From: Candidatus Haladaptatiplasma halalkaliphilum
Lineage (GTDB): Archaea; Thermoplasmatota; Thermoplasmata; Halarchaeoplasmatales; Halarchaeoplasmataceae
Length of the DNA: 33,197 nucleotides
Assembly (NCBI GenBank): GCA_019594055.1
Contig: JAFDTY010000012.1
Location: 1 to 33,197, forward strand
Direction of reading: 5' to 3'
The notes under the pieces are model-generated. The model did not search any database and had not been told where the DNA came from. It saw only the letters and a list, made by a program, of their open reading frames with translations. Positions 1 to 33,197 of the stretch are shown here, in pieces (the stretch's first letter is position 1; each line of letters opens with the position of its first letter). Both the position numbers and the translations under genes were made by a program.

Positions 1-2298
1 ACCTGGTACAAACTGCTGCAGTACATCTCCGAGCGGGATGACCATGTCCGAGGGGTGGTTGCGTGGGTGGAGTACTGTTACGTTGGTCCAGTCACTGCCG
101 TCCGCTCGTATGCTGACGTAGAGTGATGTTTTCTGAGCCGGTGGCCCCCAATTGCCAAACATAGGAGAGATCCCTCCCAACCCGGCATCCATGTCCAAAC
201 CCTGGGTTGAAGGCTCAGTGTAAGATTCGAAGCCGTAGCTCCTTACCACCAGTTTCTGATGTTCCCAAAGTGCGTTACCGATATCGCCGTAGTTGAGTAT
301 GATGGTGGAATTCTCTTCCATGAACAACGAGTTCCCGTCGGGTGCGCTAACATATTCCAGTACATCATTTCCAGCACAATCGTATGTGGACTCCGGTGGA
401 ACGGGTTCCTTGAACGTGCGGTACTCACCGTCGGGTGTGGTACCCACGCTGTAGCCTTCACGGTGGTCCATTGTGTACAGCGAGAACGTATCGAAGAAGT
501 CCTCGGTATATTCGAATTCCTCTATCTTCAGCGAGTAGAAACCGTCCTTTGGTACCATGGTGTTCCGGAGTATGTAGTTGTCGTCTACCACGCCTTCCTG
601 GTGCTCCGAAGCTATCAGTATGTTGTTGTCATGCTGGTAGTCCGTGCCGTTCCAGACGGAGACGTACGGGCAGCCAGCGTAAGGATGATAGTACCAATGT
701 GCAGTAACAGCCCTGTCTTTCTCTACGAATATTGTGATTTCCGAAAGATAAGAGATAACTGGGCCGTTCCAGCCTTCGGACCAATGGTTGAACCTATAAT
801 GGGGATGCCATGAGGTGGCTTTTAGGGTAACCTCACCTCTTGCATATACATGTCTTCCACGATCTGCATTCCATGCGAGACGGGGTGTAATCCTAGTAAT
901 GTCTCCGCAACCATTTTGCCATATTCCAAGGTTGTTCCTATAGGAAGAAACGATATGTTTAGTCGTATGTATCGTTCTGGCATTATTACAAAGGTCGTTA
1001 CCAACGGGGAAGATACCGAAGGTTTTTACATTGGGGGTTGAAAAATAGGGCAGATAAGCCCGGGTAAAGCTATTTCTGCACATAACCGTTTGGTACCCAA
1101 CACCAAGGACACTAAAATGATATCCCGCAGTCCAGTCATTTTCCGGCCAGTCGTACCACGACCTTGGACCGGGTTGGGGATCATTACGATGGTGGGAACA
1201 ACCAAATAGATGCCCTACCTCGTGTGTGAACACATAGAGACTTACAGGATTTACCAAGAATTGTAAACCAACGACAGCGGTATGAGCTAAGTGAGGCTCT
1301 CCACCCCCATCATTTAGCCGAGAAAGGGGTGCTGCCGTGCCCCACGGTCCATTTTCAATTTGATTTAGTGTAAGAAGTGTTATAAATATTACCAAATCCG
1401 CAGCCTTTTGATTCCGTAATTGCTGAACGTCGGTTCTATCTCTAAGTGTTATCCTATCATCGGATAAAGAACCACTTTCAGTATATGAAACTTCACCCCT
1501 ATGAACCACATTTAGGCTACAATAAGTTTTGCTGTTAGAAAAAACTACGTTGGCCGTTCCAACAGCAGTATTGATCATTGTAAGAATATTTCCATGGTTA
1601 TCACCACCAACAGATGCCCTTGCTGCAGGTGTATAAAGCACCATTATATCTACTGTAACATGTTGATTTGGATTATACATGAGTTCGTGGTCGGTTAGTT
1701 CCATTTTCGAGATGCCAATATTTTCTTCGAAAACATTTTCATTTATAACATCATTATTAGAAAACTCCGTTTCATATACAAAATGCAGTTCAGAGTTAGA
1801 ATCCCACCTGATAACATATGTTCGCAATTCCTCTGGAATTTCAATTATGCCGTTAGCTATGTTGTTCTCAATAGATAATATCGAAAATGCGATATCAAAA
1901 CCCTCAAGAGTTAAACGAATACTTATCCCTCCATCTGTATGCTCCGTAATGTTGCTTACACAAGAGGTAAAGGATGTATCAATAAATAGGTTCAAATTAA
2001 TGATAGCACCTTCAAAGGATTTGGGATCTTCCAATAAATCTGGGTCTATTTCGATAGGACCCGCTCTCGCGTATTGAAAATCTACACTCGGAATACTGAT
2101 GGTTGCAACATTGTTTGATTTTTCTCCTATATCCAAATCTATTACAATTGGCTTTCCATGCACCTCATTTAGGTCTCGTTCCTCGTACTCGTCTCTTAAT
2201 GGGTCTGCAAAAGCCGCTACGGGATGTGCAAATACACTTATCAGAAGCATGCTCATCAGCACCATGACACATATCGTTTTTATATTCCTGTTTTCCAT
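1..2298 (-). CDS. Secreted metzincin zinc metallopeptidase (M12/reprolysin-like), 3'-truncated by window edge
   Basis: This frame stays open for 766 codons from an ATG at 2298 to the left edge, so the gene is partial. The N-terminus has a signal peptide: basic start, hydrophobic stretch at about residues 8-24, and an AFA-type cleavage site near residue 30. A propeptide-like region without clear motifs follows to about residue 190. The metzincin zinc motif HEVGHLFGCSHH occupies 1189-1224 (first His about residue 359). A Met-turn (TVM, Met about 406) and a segment with NNAR and SSYR follow, as in bacterial peptidyl-Asp/reprolysin-like peptidases. After about residue 480 come a short beta-rich repeat-like unit and a long extracellular domain with a CPYVSVWNGTDY-type start, seen in many archaeal surface proteins. 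It is presumably an exported protease. GC content is low across the protease half and higher in the C-terminal half. The protease call is firm; the substrate is unknown. Confidence 0.88.
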   Translation of the reverse strand, partial: MENRNIKTICVMVLMSMLLISVFAHPVAAFADPLRDEYEERDLNEVHGKPIVIDLDIGEKSNNVATISIPSVDFQYARAGPIEIDPDLLEDPKSFEGAIINLNLFIDTSFTSCVSNITEHTDGGISIRLTLEGFDIAFSILSIENNIANGIIEIPEELRTYVIRWDSNSELHFVYETEFSNNDVINENVFEENIGISKMELTDHELMYNPNQHVTVDIMVLYTPAARASVGGDNHGNILTMINTAVGTANVVFSNSKTYCSLNVVHRGEVSYTESGSLSDDRITLRDRTDVQQLRNQKAADLVIFITLLTLNQIENGPWGTAAPLSRLNDGGGEPHLAHTAVVGLQFLVNPVSLYVFTHEVGHLFGCSHHRNDPQPGPRSWYDWPENDWTAGYHFSVLGVGYQTVMCRNSFTRAYLPYFSTPNVKTFGIFPVGNDLCNNARTIHTTKHIVSSYRNNLGIWQNGCGDITRITPRLAWNADRGRHVYARGEVTLKATSWHPHYRFNHWSEGWNGPVISYLSEITIFVEKDRAVTAHWYYHPYAGCPYVSVWNGTDYQHDNNILIASEHQEGVVDDNYILRNTMVPKDGFYSLKIEEFEYTEDFFDTFSLYTMDHREGYSVGTTPDGEYRTFKEPVPPESTYDCAGNDVLEYVSAPDGNSLFMEENSTIILNYGDIGNALWEHQKLVVRSYGFESYTEPSTQGLDMDAGLGGISPMFGNWGPPAQKTSLYVSIRADGSDWTNVTVLHPRNHPSDMVIPLGDVLQQFVPG

Positions 2299-2329
2299 GT
2301 TCAACCTTTTCCTTTTTTTCTTTTATTTG

Positions 2330-11891: not shown

Positions 11892-14800
11892 CTAGAGCAC
11901 CTCGTCGTCAAGTAGAGCCGCCCTTATCATGGCCATAATGGTATCGTTCTCGTAACCCTTCTGGTCTATGGCTCCCACGGGGCACACGCTGGCGCATGAA
12001 CCGCATCCCTTGCAGAGTACGTCTGTGATAACGGCCTTATCTTCTTCGGGGTCGTGGTCTATGGCTCCGTACGGGCATACCGCAATGCACATCTTGCAGC
12101 CGCTGCATTTATCACTGTCAACCACGGATATGATACCCTCGCTCCTGGTATGACCGAGCATCATGGGTATCATGGCTTTGGAAGCCGCCCCTTCCGCCTG
12201 GGCAAGGGTGTCAGATACATTTTTCGGATAATGTGCGCCCCCGGCCAGGTAAACTCCCTCGGAGGGGAATTCCAGCGGTCTTAGCTTGGCATGAGCCTCC
12301 ATATAGAATCCCGCAGGGTCGGATGATATCTTGAGCATCTTCTTCAGTAACGGTGCGGTTTCATCACCTTCCAGTTGCATCGCCAGTACGATATAATCGG
12401 CATGGATCTCAAGCTCTTCGTCCAGAAGGTTATCACGGACCTTGAGGTGAAGCTTACCTTCTCCCACGGTAACCTCGGGCCCCTCCCCTGTGGAGTATCT
12501 CAGGAAGACGACACCGTCCTTCCCCTCCACATCCATGTAATATTCCTCTTCCCCCTTTCCAAAGACCCGCATATCTTTGAACAGTATGTAAACGTTGGAT
12601 CCCGGATATCGCTTCTTCACCTCCTTTGCATTCTTCAGGGAGTTACCGCATCCCACACGACAGCACCACGGGCGCTCCTCCTCCAGGGCACCGACGCAGT
12701 TGATGAACACCACGTTTTCCGGTCTTTCAAGTTCGTGGGATGCCAGGGCCTCGTCGAACTCCAGCTGGGTCATGATCCTCGGATCTTTACCGTATCCGTG
12801 CCAGCCCTGGGGTTCTATCTCCCTGAAACCCGTTGCCAGGACTATGGTGTCCGCCTGGATATCCTCGCCGTTAATCCGGGCAGTGTAATTGCCTATGTAA
12901 CCCTCTATGTTCTCCATCACGGCGGACAGGATAACACGGATATTCCTTTCGTCTTCCACCTCGTGTGCTATGCGATCCGCAAATTCCCTTGCGTCGATAT
13001 CCGATGGGAACAGTGTATTCAACCTTCGCAGCTTACCACCGAGTTTCGCTTCCTTCTCCACCAGTGTTACCCTCTGCCCCGCCCTGGCCAGTGTCAGTGC
13101 GGTTTGCATGCCCGCGGGACCGCCTCCTATGACCAGTGCCCGATTCCCCACCATTATCTCCTCCTCGGTGAGAGCGGAGAGTCTCTTGGCTTTGGCAACA
13201 GCCATCCTGGTCAAGAGTATTGCCTTTTCCGTGGCTTTTTGCCGATCGTCACTGTGAACCCAGCTGCAATGGTTCCTTATGTTAGCCATCTCAAAGAGAT
13301 AGCGGTTCAAACCGACTTCCTCCATGGTATCCTGGAACAGGGGCGCGTGGGTTCGGGGTGAGCAGGCCGAGACCACTATCCTGTTCAGGCCGTGCTCTTC
13401 GATGGCCTTCTTTATTTCAGTCTGGGCATCCTCAGAACATGCGAACATGCTGTGGTCCACATGGGCAACCGAGGGTACATCCCTTATTGCCTCAACCACA
13501 CCTTCGACATCGAGATAATGGGCTATGTTCTTACCACAGTGGCAGACGAAGACCCCTGTCCTCGGTTCTTCCCCGGATACGTCTCTTTGAGGTCTTTTCT
13601 TACGCCTTCCCTTTCTGGGCCTCTCGAGCAAGGGCATCAACGCCCTGGCAGCAGCACCGCTGGCCTGGGACACACTGTCCGGAATATCCTTGGGTGATTG
13701 TGCACATCCCGCCATGTAAATCCCTTTCCGGGTGGTATCCAAAGGTGCCGTGAGCAAGTCCCGGGAATCGAAGAATCCGTACTCGTCCAGTGATATCTCA
13801 AGGATCTCCGCCAGCTTTTTGTTGTCTGAAGATGGGATTATGGCCGAGGAGAGCACCACCATATCCACATGGTCCGTTCTCACCTCTCCCTTCTCGGTAT
13901 CCTCGTACTCCACTGCCAATCTTCCGTCAGTCAGCCCGTAAACCCGGGACGGGCGCCCTCTCAGGTACCTTACCCCTTTATCCCTCGCCTTGTCGTAGTA
14001 CTGCTGGAAGTCCTTACCGTAGGCCCTGAGGTCCATGTAATATATGGCAGTGTCAAGTTCCGGATCCTCACCCTTGCTTATGGAGGCCTGCTTGGTGGAG
14101 TACATGCAGCATACCCTCGAACAGTATGGCATACCCTTCTGCTTGCACCTGGAGCCTACGCACTGTATCCATGCGACGGATGCCGGTGGCTTGCCGTCTG
14201 TGCGTTTCAGTACCTTACCGCCCGTCGGCCCCGAAGCCGAAAGCAACCGCTCGTACTCCAGGGCGGTGAGTACGTTGGGATATCTGCCGTAACCGTACTC
14301 CTCTCTCCACTCATGGGGCTGCATCATCTCGTATCCGGTAGCCAGCACTATGCTGCCCACCTCTACGGTTATTTCCCGGGAGGTATCCAGGAAGTTTATG
14401 GCTCCCGCATCACAGATGCGTTCGCAGGCGCCGCAACCCACGCAGTTCGTGTAATCCAACGTATATGTAAGAGGCACGGATTGTGGATATTCCACGTAGA
14501 TGGCCTTGCGATCCGATAATTTCTGTTCGAATTCGCTGGGCACCTCAACGGGGCAGGCCGTTTCGCAGTCGCCGCATCCCGTGCATATGTCGGGGTCGAC
14601 GTATCGCGTTCTTTTCCATATCTTGGCCTCGAATCCGCCGGCGCCGCCCACCACGTCTTTGACTTCCGAATAGGTCAATAATGTGATATTTTCATTCCTG
14701 CTGGCCTCCACCATCTTTGGGGCCGATATGCATATAGAACAGTCGTTGGTGGGAAAGGTCTTGTCAAGCTTGACCATATTTCCACCTATGCTGGGGCTTT

Positions 14801-29168: not shown

Positions 29169-29327
29169 ATGCTTGATAAAATGGGAATACTCGCAAAGGA
29201 TATAGCAAAATATACATGTGAAAAAAAAGAAAGTTCATTAGGCGACACACTATTCAAAAGGTTCATCACAATCCATATCGATTCTGTAGAAGAGGTCAGG
29301 AAGATCAGGGAGAGAAATCGAATATGA
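29169..29327 (+). CDS. Small putative antitoxin partner of the PIN toxin
   Basis: A 52-residue frame starts at an ATG at 29169 and ends with a stop that overlaps the ATG of the PIN gene in an ATGA. The product is charged and probably helical (ILAKDIAKYTCEKK; HIDSVEEVRKIRERNRI). No DNA-binding fold is recognisable at this length. Size, order and translational coupling are those of VapB-type antitoxins before VapC toxins, which is the sole ground for the call. A second ATG at 29181 is possible. Confidence 0.6.
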   Translation: MLDKMGILAKDIAKYTCEKKESSLGDTLFKRFITIHIDSVEEVRKIRERNRI

Positions 29328-29722
29328 AGTTGTTCATAGATACGAACGTTTTTATATCCGCCCTATTCGGTGAAGAAGAACGTTCCGAGATAGCGAAAGA
29401 GGTTTTGAATCTGGATGTGGTCAAATACACATCTTTACTTAATCTCATGGAGATCAGGAGCGTCTTATCGAAAAAAAAACAGGTATCCAAAATTGAGATC
29501 GAAAAAGTAATCGATGATATCATCCATGGGACAGAAATAATCATACCCGATTCATCTAGTTTTTTAAAGAGTAGTGAGTTTCAAAAAGAAAATTATCTCT
29601 ATCCTTCGGATTGTCTTATATTTACACTTTCAAAAAACCTGGATTCTATTTTGGTTACATTTGATTCGGAACTGATCCATCACGGAGCAGTAGAACCGGA
29701 AAAGTTATTAGAGCAATACTGA
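29324..29722 (+). CDS. PIN-domain ribonuclease toxin (VapC-like)
   Basis: This 132-residue protein is a complete PIN domain. It opens with FIDTNVFISALF (Asp6), has Glu43 in LNLMEIRS, Asp96 in YPSDCLIF and Asp114 in VTFDSEL, giving the four acidic residues that hold the catalytic metal. VapC toxins cut specific RNAs when freed from their antitoxin. It overlaps the small upstream gene by 4 nt. The pair sits between two copies of the pcc1 tail and is more AT-rich than the genes around it, suggesting acquired DNA. Confidence 0.85.
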   Translation: MKLFIDTNVFISALFGEEERSEIAKEVLNLDVVKYTSLLNLMEIRSVLSKKKQVSKIEIEKVIDDIIHGTEIIIPDSSSFLKSSEFQKENYLYPSDCLIFTLSKNLDSILVTFDSELIHHGAVEPEKLLEQY

Positions 29723-31005: not shown

Positions 31006-31135
31006 ACTGCCTCTGTGAAAGAGGATTTTCCCACCGGTGTACGTCATATAAACGCGTTCTATCCGGGCAAGTTCGTGTATCATGAGCCAGTAACACTACC
31101 CTTTTGATAGTCTAAAGGAGATAGTATGTTTGACC

Positions 31136-33197
31136 TCATTCCTGTAGTGTCTCGCCCAGGACCATGACGTTGTTAACGTAGAAGCCTCCGTATGTGCTGG
31201 GATCGGCGTAATGGTTGTAGCCCGAGGCGCTGCACGTGAACACCCTGAACCGTATGAGTATCACGTTTCCGGCGAATTCGCTGAGGTCTACGTTCAACCG
31301 GTCAAGGTGGCCTGCCGTTGTCCAGTTGTAGCCTATATTTTGACCTGCGTCGCCTCCGGAACCCGATACACCGGTTGCCGCCCTGACACCGAGGTTTATG
31401 ACCTGCCAAGAGATGCCGTTGTCAGTTGACACCTCGACGCGGAAGCCGTCCGGTGGTCTTCCGCCGGCGGTGTTTATGTTGAACTTGAAGTCCGCACTAA
31501 GTGTAGCCGTCCTTGCGTTGGTGAGGTGTATGGGTGCGGTGACCAGTCTGTTGTCTATGCCGGGTCTGAAGAATCCCTCGTCCGGGTCTGCATTGCGCCA
31601 TGCTCTGGTCGACTGGCCGTCGGGACCCGTTGTTTCGTTAAGATGCCAGACATCGTGCATACCCGCCACGATATTATCTGCCGTATTGCCTATTCGTGTG
31701 ACCACCACGCTGACGTCGTCCAGCCACCAGCCTCCGGGCCTTATACCTCCGCCGAACTGTTTGTAGTAGAAGCGTATGCGGACGGTGTTCAGTTTATCTT
31801 CGGGTATCTGGTAGTCATCTCTTAACAGGTCGACCTTGACGAACTCCCACTGCATGGTACCGCCGGCGGACTTGCCGTTCCAGCACCATATTATGTCGTT
31901 ATCGAAGTCGTCCGAGTCTATCTCGCTGAGCAGCAGGTTGCCCGTGTAGGGTCCCACCGAGGGTTTTACATAACGCCACAGGTATTGACCTGGCTCGTCA
32001 GGATCCTCGTAGCCTACCTCCATGTACGCACCGTTGACACCCTGTATAAGCCTGTATTTATGCCAGAAGGTGAGCCATGCGTCCGACGTGTTGGTGAGGT
32101 CGAGTCTGGGGGTTACAGCGTACTTGTCGAAGTTCCTTATCCATTCCCTGCCGTCACCCTGGTTTATCACGAACTCGTCTTCGATGGCTGTTAGGTTCTC
32201 CGTCCTCTGGAGCATGTAGGCGATTCTCTCGAATATGTCCCCGAGGTCACCGGGGTCAGGTGCAAAGAAATACTCTGCGCCCGAGGTGTTAGCGATACGC
32301 CAGAGGTTGTATTCAGTTGTACCAGATTCCCAAGTTGATACATCGCCTGGATCCCTATCAATTAAATAATTATCATCGCCCGCGGATTCAAAATTTTGTG
32401 CTGGATTCCAATTAGGGATATTTGGATTGTGTTCTAAGCCTAAGCCTATCGTGAAAATTCGAATTGGTGAATTTAGCAAACCACTCCTTACGCGCCATTG
32501 AGGCAAGATACCTACATCTCTCCATTCTCCTGGATCGTATGGGCCTTCAAATTCATAATAAGGTAGCCTATATTTCCCTTTGTGGCCAGTGTAAGTAACA
32601 GTTGGATAGTTATCCTCTGGATCCATATCATGCCACGGTGCCCAATCTCTACTCCCTTCTTCAGGTGTTTGTCCGCCTGGTGCATTGTCAGAAGCTCGAT
32701 TATCGGCACCATCTGATAATATTACCACTGCTGGTATATGTTCTGGGAAATTTTCTTGTTCATCTCTAACCATTTCATATGATTCACCAACTATGTCCCA
32801 AAGAGAGGTCATCGGTGCAAATGCGATGCCGTCGATTCTTTCGTGTACTAGTGTTCTTCCTGCTTCATCTAATATGGTAGGTTCCAATACAGGTACAGGA
32901 TTTGTAGCTCCAAATCTGTAAAGACCGACTGCTGATCCATTCGAAAGTGAATCTACAAGTACTTTAGCGGCCTGTTTTGCATGCCATAACCATGTCTGGC
33001 CTTCGTAAAGACGATCATCCATTGATCGGGAATTATCTATAGCGATCACTAATAAGACATCCATCAACCGTCCACCCTTGGGCTCCAGCATGAAGTAGCT
33101 GTACGGGTCGCTCTTGGCCTCGTCGGTCGTGTTCACCACACCGTGGCTCATCGACCTGTCCCAATTACCTGCAACGTTGGTGTCTATGTCGTCGAAC
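31136..33197 (-). CDS. Surface protein with von Willebrand A domain and jelly-roll domains, 5'-truncated by window edge
   Basis: The frame ends at 31136 and is still open at the right edge, with no stop before 33197, so the N-terminus lies outside; an internal ATG at 33151 is unlikely to be the start. About 686 residues are visible. A vWA domain begins with AIDNSRSMDD, a DxSxS metal-site motif (33020-33037). It is followed by PAVVILSDGADNR and, after a long insert, FTIGLGLEHNPN. The C-terminal half has two beta-rich repeats, each with WWLDDVSVVV- or FYVNNVMVLG-like ends, as in MAM/immune-inhibitor-A type jelly rolls. No C-terminal membrane anchor is present. It is probably exported and adhesive. 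GC content drops sharply between about 32315 and 33062. Confidence 0.82.
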   Translation of the reverse strand, partial: FDDIDTNVAGNWDRSMSHGVVNTTDEAKSDPYSYFMLEPKGGRLMDVLLVIAIDNSRSMDDRLYEGQTWLWHAKQAAKVLVDSLSNGSAVGLYRFGATNPVPVLEPTILDEAGRTLVHERIDGIAFAPMTSLWDIVGESYEMVRDEQENFPEHIPAVVILSDGADNRASDNAPGGQTPEEGSRDWAPWHDMDPEDNYPTVTYTGHKGKYRLPYYEFEGPYDPGEWRDVGILPQWRVRSGLLNSPIRIFTIGLGLEHNPNIPNWNPAQNFESAGDDNYLIDRDPGDVSTWESGTTEYNLWRIANTSGAEYFFAPDPGDLGDIFERIAYMLQRTENLTAIEDEFVINQGDGREWIRNFDKYAVTPRLDLTNTSDAWLTFWHKYRLIQGVNGAYMEVGYEDPDEPGQYLWRYVKPSVGPYTGNLLLSEIDSDDFDNDIIWCWNGKSAGGTMQWEFVKVDLLRDDYQIPEDKLNTVRIRFYYKQFGGGIRPGGWWLDDVSVVVTRIGNTADNIVAGMHDVWHLNETTGPDGQSTRAWRNADPDEGFFRPGIDNRLVTAPIHLTNARTATLSADFKFNINTAGGRPPDGFRVEVSTDNGISWQVINLGVRAATGVSGSGGDAGQNIGYNWTTAGHLDRLNVDLSEFAGNVILIRFRVFTCSASGYNHYADPSTYGGFYVNNVMVLGETLQE

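Follow-up and report, generated by a model that had tools for sequence, protein, structure and literature searches.

The closest described system that we found for this locus is VARTIG of the Thermococcales (PMC8416519), described in the sections of that paper used here as a large archaeal surface protein with one hypervariable domain and apparent exchange between species. In those sections, the variable part is a C-terminal Ig domain accompanied by small satellite genes. The VARTIG survey, which included CARDB proteins, is reported in the same sections to have met no closely similar module elsewhere and to have met several mosaic proteins in Methanosarcinales (PMC8416519). A second likeness is PilB of Streptococcus sanguinis (PMC8179133), where a vWA module with a metal site sits on a type IV pilin; PilB is bacterial, small, and built on a single vWA module, and the sections used here describe no cassette exchange. 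In Haloquadratum walsbyi, the excerpts used (PMC4535781) describe a cell-wall island whose archaeal surface genes owe their diversity to homologous recombination and mobile elements, a variation thought to limit virus infection, but there an island of genes varies and not one domain with shared borders. Archaeal pili are treated in PMC4858521, also used in part. Among the matches listed from a search of the open-licence literature, we recognised nothing as the system described below.

The window, meaning the whole stretch of 33,197 nucleotides that was analysed, is contig C3 of genome G000 (1.82 Mb, 108 contigs). Gene A leaves it at position 33197 on the minus strand, and the final 141 bases of C3 are identical to, and in frame with, the first 141 of contig C66. 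Gene A is the last of three tandem giant genes, with B (1,810 codons) and C (2,087 codons) on C66, and the array shares an architecture of Pilin_N, CARDB, vWA region, and MAM-like tail. Pfam scores Pilin_N and CARDB above the cut-off in all three; in gene A, the archaeal type IV pilin-like N terminus (Pilin_N, PF07790) reaches 40.1 bits against a cut-off of 25.2. VWA_2 is above the cut-off in A, within the block described below, below it in B, and absent in C, and the MAM-like tail passes the gathering score in B only. Features are collected in the table. The window has no Rfam match at gathering scores, and a tRNA search found none.

Table. Features of gene A and of the leftmost gene, in window coordinates
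Feature	Position	Strand	Remarks
Gene A, C-terminal 686 codons	31136..33197	-	1,798 codons in all, the rest on contig C66 of G000
C-terminal constant region, partly MAM/InhA-like	31139..32210	-	Pfam, below the gathering score in gene A
Downstream anchor, EYNLWRIANTSGAEYFFAPD...	32213..32311	-	Completes the vWA domain
Low-GC3 vWA cassette, GC3 0.26	32312..33055	-	About codons 1160-1407 of gene A; VWA_2, model, fold match
Predicted MIDAS core DNSRS (DxSxS)	33023..33037	-	Just inside the cassette
Upstream anchor, in-window part, SDPYSYFMLEPKGGRLMDV and before	33056..33197	-	Continues into C66
Exact 141-base overlap with the start of C66	33057..33197	.	Putative assembly fork, cassette edge
Leftmost gene, M12B-type metallopeptidase, apparent second mosaic	1..2304	-	Codons 21-541 GC3 0.34, rest 0.65

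The gene A family differs from VARTIG in that its variable part is an internal vWA cassette and not a hypervariable C-terminal Ig domain, in consisting of Pilin_N/CARDB proteins, and in belonging to another class. It may differ in satellites as well: a search of the window's genome (90% complete) with the 686 residues returned giant frames and one 109-residue match to the C terminus only, a search that divergent satellites could escape. A lone 152-base copy of the 3' end of gene A, 91% identical and within a small frame, lies on contig C58 of the same genome (positions 13165-13316) and is perhaps a remnant of an array member.

The AT-rich block with a sharp edge that an earlier note had pointed out inside the vWA protein is evident in the third codon positions. 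Two change points fitted to third-position G+C place it at codons 1163-1407 (window 33041-32312, minus strand), with GC3 of 0.26 inside and 0.64 outside and a log-likelihood gain of 62.8, where 200 codon shuffles reached at most 14.0. The limits first proposed, 32315-33062, are thus right to within a few codons, whereas the hand-counted G+C of about 38% was too low, the measured overall value being 42.5%, with 51.6% and 55.4% in the flanks. A fit to all positions gives 33067-32307 with a gain of 14.9 (unshuffled). The drop is restricted to third positions, since GC1/2/3 are 0.57/0.45/0.26 in the block versus 0.54/0.39/0.63 upstream, and the first and second positions of the block are not lowered. 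The amino-acid make-up does not explain the fall, because the amino acids of the block combined with the codon habits of the flanks predict a GC3 of 0.64. At four-fold sites, G or C is found in 25 of 111 cases in the block versus 442 of 705. When the same scan was run on 19 other, hand-picked longer genes of the window, only the leftmost gene (33.9) had a gain above 7.1; on C66, C gains 36.2, also within its vWA region, and B 7.1.

B and C are also the paralogues with the same flanks and a different middle that the earlier note had envisaged. Identity between B and C is 76% over the last 325 residues, 63% over 400 residues preceding the vWA region, and 34% within that region, so the paralogues have the flanks in common and not the cassette. 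A similar step is seen against the orthologue of gene A in G002, a genome of the same genus, where identity is 80.6% (361 columns) and 87.4% (388) in the flanks and 50.2% in the cassette, and where DNA identity drops at both cassette borders. The low-identity block spans A-residues 1160-1401 and the GC3 block 1163-1407 in A and 1165-1405 in the orthologue, whose cassette has a GC3 of 0.30 and both borders inside one contig.

A block of this kind could in principle be a chimera, AT-rich DNA of another organism joined by the assembler, the more so as the contig ends at the block and the upstream part of gene A lies on another contig, reached through the 141-base overlap alone. The unbroken G002 contig, with its own low-GC3 block and both borders, rules out a chimera as the source of the pattern; moreover, the downstream border of the window is in-contig and in frame, and the pattern recurs in many MAGs. 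We regard this explanation as having next to no chance of being right.

The tree path from A to its orthologue is 0.14 in the C flank, 0.30 in the N flank, and 1.6 in the cassette. To G005 and G014, both of another genus, the paths from A measure 1.38 and 1.51 (C flank) and 1.12 and 1.18 (cassette). The cassette divergence of A is ordinary against these two and far too large against the orthologue within the genus, which supports replacement. The distances to G013 (same family, other genus), 1.67 in the cassette versus 0.69 and 1.14 in the flanks, count against replacement, because a fast cassette would give the same pattern. A and its orthologue do not group together in the cassette tree, yet their grouping is not rejected there (AU p 0.41, 0.35), so the case for replacement in A rests on the amount of divergence and not on topology.

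The longest stretch of identical DNA shared by A and the orthologue, 73 bases at 32242-32314, abuts the downstream border. At four-fold sites, the two genes agree at 27 of 32 positions beside the cassette, 84 of 129 further downstream, 34 of 62 in the upstream anchor, 24 of 59 in the cassette, and 109 of 303 in the first 1,000 codons; silent-site identity is thus high next to the cassette, and the cassette itself is no lower than the N-terminal half. A donor search of 400 genomes of the class found a relative in 18, the window's own included, the best other relative being 58% identical and none closer. Among viral contigs, 600 pattern matches included no relative, and phage and plasmid records gave no match.

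The domain replacement by recombination with a divergent copy that the earlier note proposed is supported by the identity step at the same borders against the G002 orthologue, by a cassette divergence excessive within a genus, and by trees of cassette and flank that disagree for other members of the family. The sequences support replacement by a divergent copy, where the newer cassette may be that of A or that of the orthologue.

The shared borders extend beyond the genus. The pair G025/G093, from another family, has its breaks at A-residues 1160 and 1403, and in nine genes the GC3 block begins within 1156-1184 and stops within 1387-1462. Other pairs have looser borders, 1126 to 1323 and 1401 to 1466 (one truncated gene aside), several of them with longer cassettes; this comparison covers 10 hand-picked pairs, one of them a control whose result reflects missing sequence. 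In 11 of the 12 pairs that reach 0.70 identity in the better flank, cassette identity is at most 0.57, in a list that leaves out pairs under 0.55 and in which some cassettes are cut by contig ends. The exception is the same-genus pair G005/G014 (C flank 0.73, cassette 0.75), whose cassette is as alike as its C flank, so the cassette is not always fast.

This bears on the alternative that nothing was imported and that the cassette diversified in place under positive or relaxed selection, becoming divergent and poor in the usual codons. Such a course would account for the differing cassettes in 11 of the 12 closest pairs, the low cassette GC3 of the orthologue as well, the excess of cassette over flank divergence against G013, and a silent-site similarity in the cassette close to that of the first 1,000 codons. 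The cassette is not fast, however, between G005 and G014 or between A and either of them, other poorly conserved regions dip by at most -0.045 in GC3 compared with about -0.10 in the cassette, and the trees conflict in both directions. We therefore consider diversification in place improbable.

The tree conflict itself is strong. G074 and G067, of the same genus, form a clade in the C flank (100/100) that is rejected in the cassette (AU p 4e-59), and G074 and G081, of different families, form a clade in the cassette (100/99) that is rejected in the C flank (AU p 2e-8). The cassette rejects G081+G105 (p 4e-4), which is no flank clade either (p 0.22); rejected in the flank are G053+G067 (p 1e-62) and A+G005+G014 (p 0.004). 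In the second AU test, the groups were named after the trees had been seen, the long-branch row G087C98 was dropped, and the C flank was started later. The conflict among G074, G067, and G081 shows that the family exchanges cassettes; it gives no date for the swap in gene A, because these genomes belong to other families of the class.

Indirect signs of alternative cassettes within one population come from the assemblies. Sister genomes have k141 contig names, so 141 bases is the expected overlap between neighbours in the assembly graph. The overlap of C3 and C66 stops at the edge of the low-GC3 block, and because the two contigs were left unmerged despite it, the junction suggests a fork, most simply one at which alternative cassettes leave a common anchor. 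Exact end overlaps number three among 90 ends of 56 contigs (149 within-genome end pairs), the others being a 126-base overlap of C89 and C98 in G081 (L181/L137), a genome of another family, on the N side of the cassette, and a 121-base overlap of C33 and C95 in G005, at a gene start. Of 51 contig ends in homologous frames, 25 were placed inside the cassette (doubtfully for one, whose G074 frame is anchored on a repeat), where about a quarter would be expected; the excess has p 5e-5 (1.5e-4 with 24) at the mean cassette share of 0.23 and p 0.003 (0.008 with 24) at a share of 0.30. In the genus of the window, 10 of 12 contig ends fall within A-residues 1092-1467. Because a single fork yields two ends that depend on each other, we take this excess as supporting evidence only. 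Contigs C34, C105, C114, C125, and C134 of G002 end in or beside the vWA cassette, like those of the window's genome.

The cassette of gene A matches VWA_2 with 29.3 bits (cut-off 27), and its AlphaFold model folds into a vWA structure (pLDDT 83), which superposes with the vWA domain of PDB entry 4fx5 (Z 20.6, rmsd 2.4 over 177 residues). The model places the upstream border inside the first strand, immediately ahead of the metal motif, and the downstream one where the helix that precedes the last strand and helix begins, in agreement with the earlier reading that the block covers most of the vWA domain. In 12 aligned cassettes, D7 and S9 are invariant, and S11, T83, and D115 are conserved in at least 90%; a DxSxS core with T and D ligands, here predicted from sequence, is known as a MIDAS. 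The cassette of L055 on G002 contig C34 (5603-6484) reads IDNSHH where the other aligned ones read DxSxS, and its metal site may therefore be altered.

The nearest structures are several vWA proteins, including the pilus adhesins PilB, Mfa5, SpaC, and PitA, and the PilB likeness is found by sequence profile as well as by fold. The vWA subunits of TFIIH and the proteasome score almost as high in the fold search, so the fold alone is no proof of adhesion. Our best guess, by analogy and because of the Pilin_N start and the fold matches that include pilus adhesins, is that the gene A product would be a pilus-borne or membrane-held adhesin.

The low GC3 recurs across the family. Of 82 homologous frames, 57 genes could be compared (39 with both anchors; cassettes cut by contig ends and the doubtful G074 frame are included), and the cassette is lower than the flanks in 55; the two exceptions are one gene each of G014 and G105. 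The largest dip elsewhere in the protein is found at A480-539. The cassette dip persists at conserved columns in 44 of 54 genes. GC3 is raised over A1020-1109 upstream, a family-wide shoulder in the C66 part of the upstream anchor, and over A1470-1499 downstream: corrected for amino acids, 47 of 57 genes are higher at A1080-1109, 42 of 59 at A1470-1499, and, inside the cassette, 10 of 54 at A1380-1409. Counted per genus, which is safer because the genes of one genome are not independent, the N anchor is higher in 14 of 15, the cassette lower in 12 of 15, and the C anchor higher in 12 of 15.

Two origins for the low GC3 remain, import from A/T-rich relatives or the loss of GC-biased gene conversion in a cassette that cannot pair. 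The latter concerns the GC3 valley only and is compatible with exchange: anchors that recombine often would become richer in G+C and the unpairable cassette would drift to A/T, making an A/T-rich donor unnecessary. Recombination has been linked to G+C in bacteria, according to the sections of PMC4450053 used here. The raised GC3 upstream and in one downstream stretch, the fall inside the cassette, and the genus counts are as conversion would predict, and G+C-rich hosts have G+C-rich cassettes. On the other hand, the stretches directly beside the cassette (A1110-1169 and A1440-1469) and A1500-1529 show no significant rise, the anchor zones were picked after the profile had been viewed, and an upward lean is also seen in two control zones (11 of 16 and 11 of 14 genera), with means of +0.02 against +0.09 and +0.05 in the anchors. 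The anchors are also conserved, so codon selection may act on them, and the sharp borders in A fit both import and conversion. The shoulders favour lost conversion or a mixture of both, and conversion as the source of the valley we put forward as a tentative possibility.

Borders common to two families might also point to a dedicated diversifier, such as a retroelement, an invertible segment, or a site-specific recombinase, altering the cassette. A retroelement is unlikely: reverse transcriptase (PF00078) was found in neither of two genomes (90% and 95% complete), with a control positive in 3 of 14. The window has no inverted repeat of at least 14 bases at 31100-33197, C66:1-6000 holds 11 inverted-repeat pairs, mostly imperfect, and no recombinase occurs among 10 neighbouring proteins scanned. 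The anchors also vary at silent sites across genera. We give a dedicated diversifier very little credence.

The similar step that the earlier note saw in the leftmost gene is also present, and this gene is, as judged from sequence comparison, a second mosaic surface gene. A different frame of the same genome, 1,505 codons long and on contig C64, contains a stretch 90% identical to the last 230 residues of its product, which are also 68-71% identical to frames of G001, G008, and G003; the N-terminal part finds its matches in other proteins, at 32-39% identity. A PIN-domain gene of the window (29324-29722) has a GC3 of 0.38 in a surrounding stretch of 33-38% G+C and is compositionally like accessory DNA.

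Taking the evidence together, we consider it likely that the vWA adhesion cassette of gene A was swapped by homologous recombination between conserved anchors. Gene A would encode a giant surface protein with a pilin N terminus, CARDB repeats, a vWA domain with metal-site residues, and a MAM-like tail. The exchanged cassette would comprise most of the vWA domain, from within the first strand to the helix before the last strand, and would be replaced by recombination between the flanking anchors; because these are conserved protein motifs, the reading frame is kept. The donor DNA most likely came from related archaea with divergent copies. The exchange may serve to vary the binding partner of the adhesin or to escape viruses that use it. 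More speculatively, species throughout the class might trade vWA cassettes at shared borders and without a dedicated enzyme, with the GC3 valley and its shoulders as a footprint of GC-biased conversion, an extension that we think doubtful.

If true, this would be a second archaeal surface-protein family with exchange of a single domain, VARTIG being the one described in the papers used here. It would combine shared borders with an adhesion domain predicted to bind metal, and its compositional signature could be looked for in any genome. Two questions would become testable, namely, which ligands uncultured Thermoplasmata bind and whether archaeal gene conversion is GC biased.
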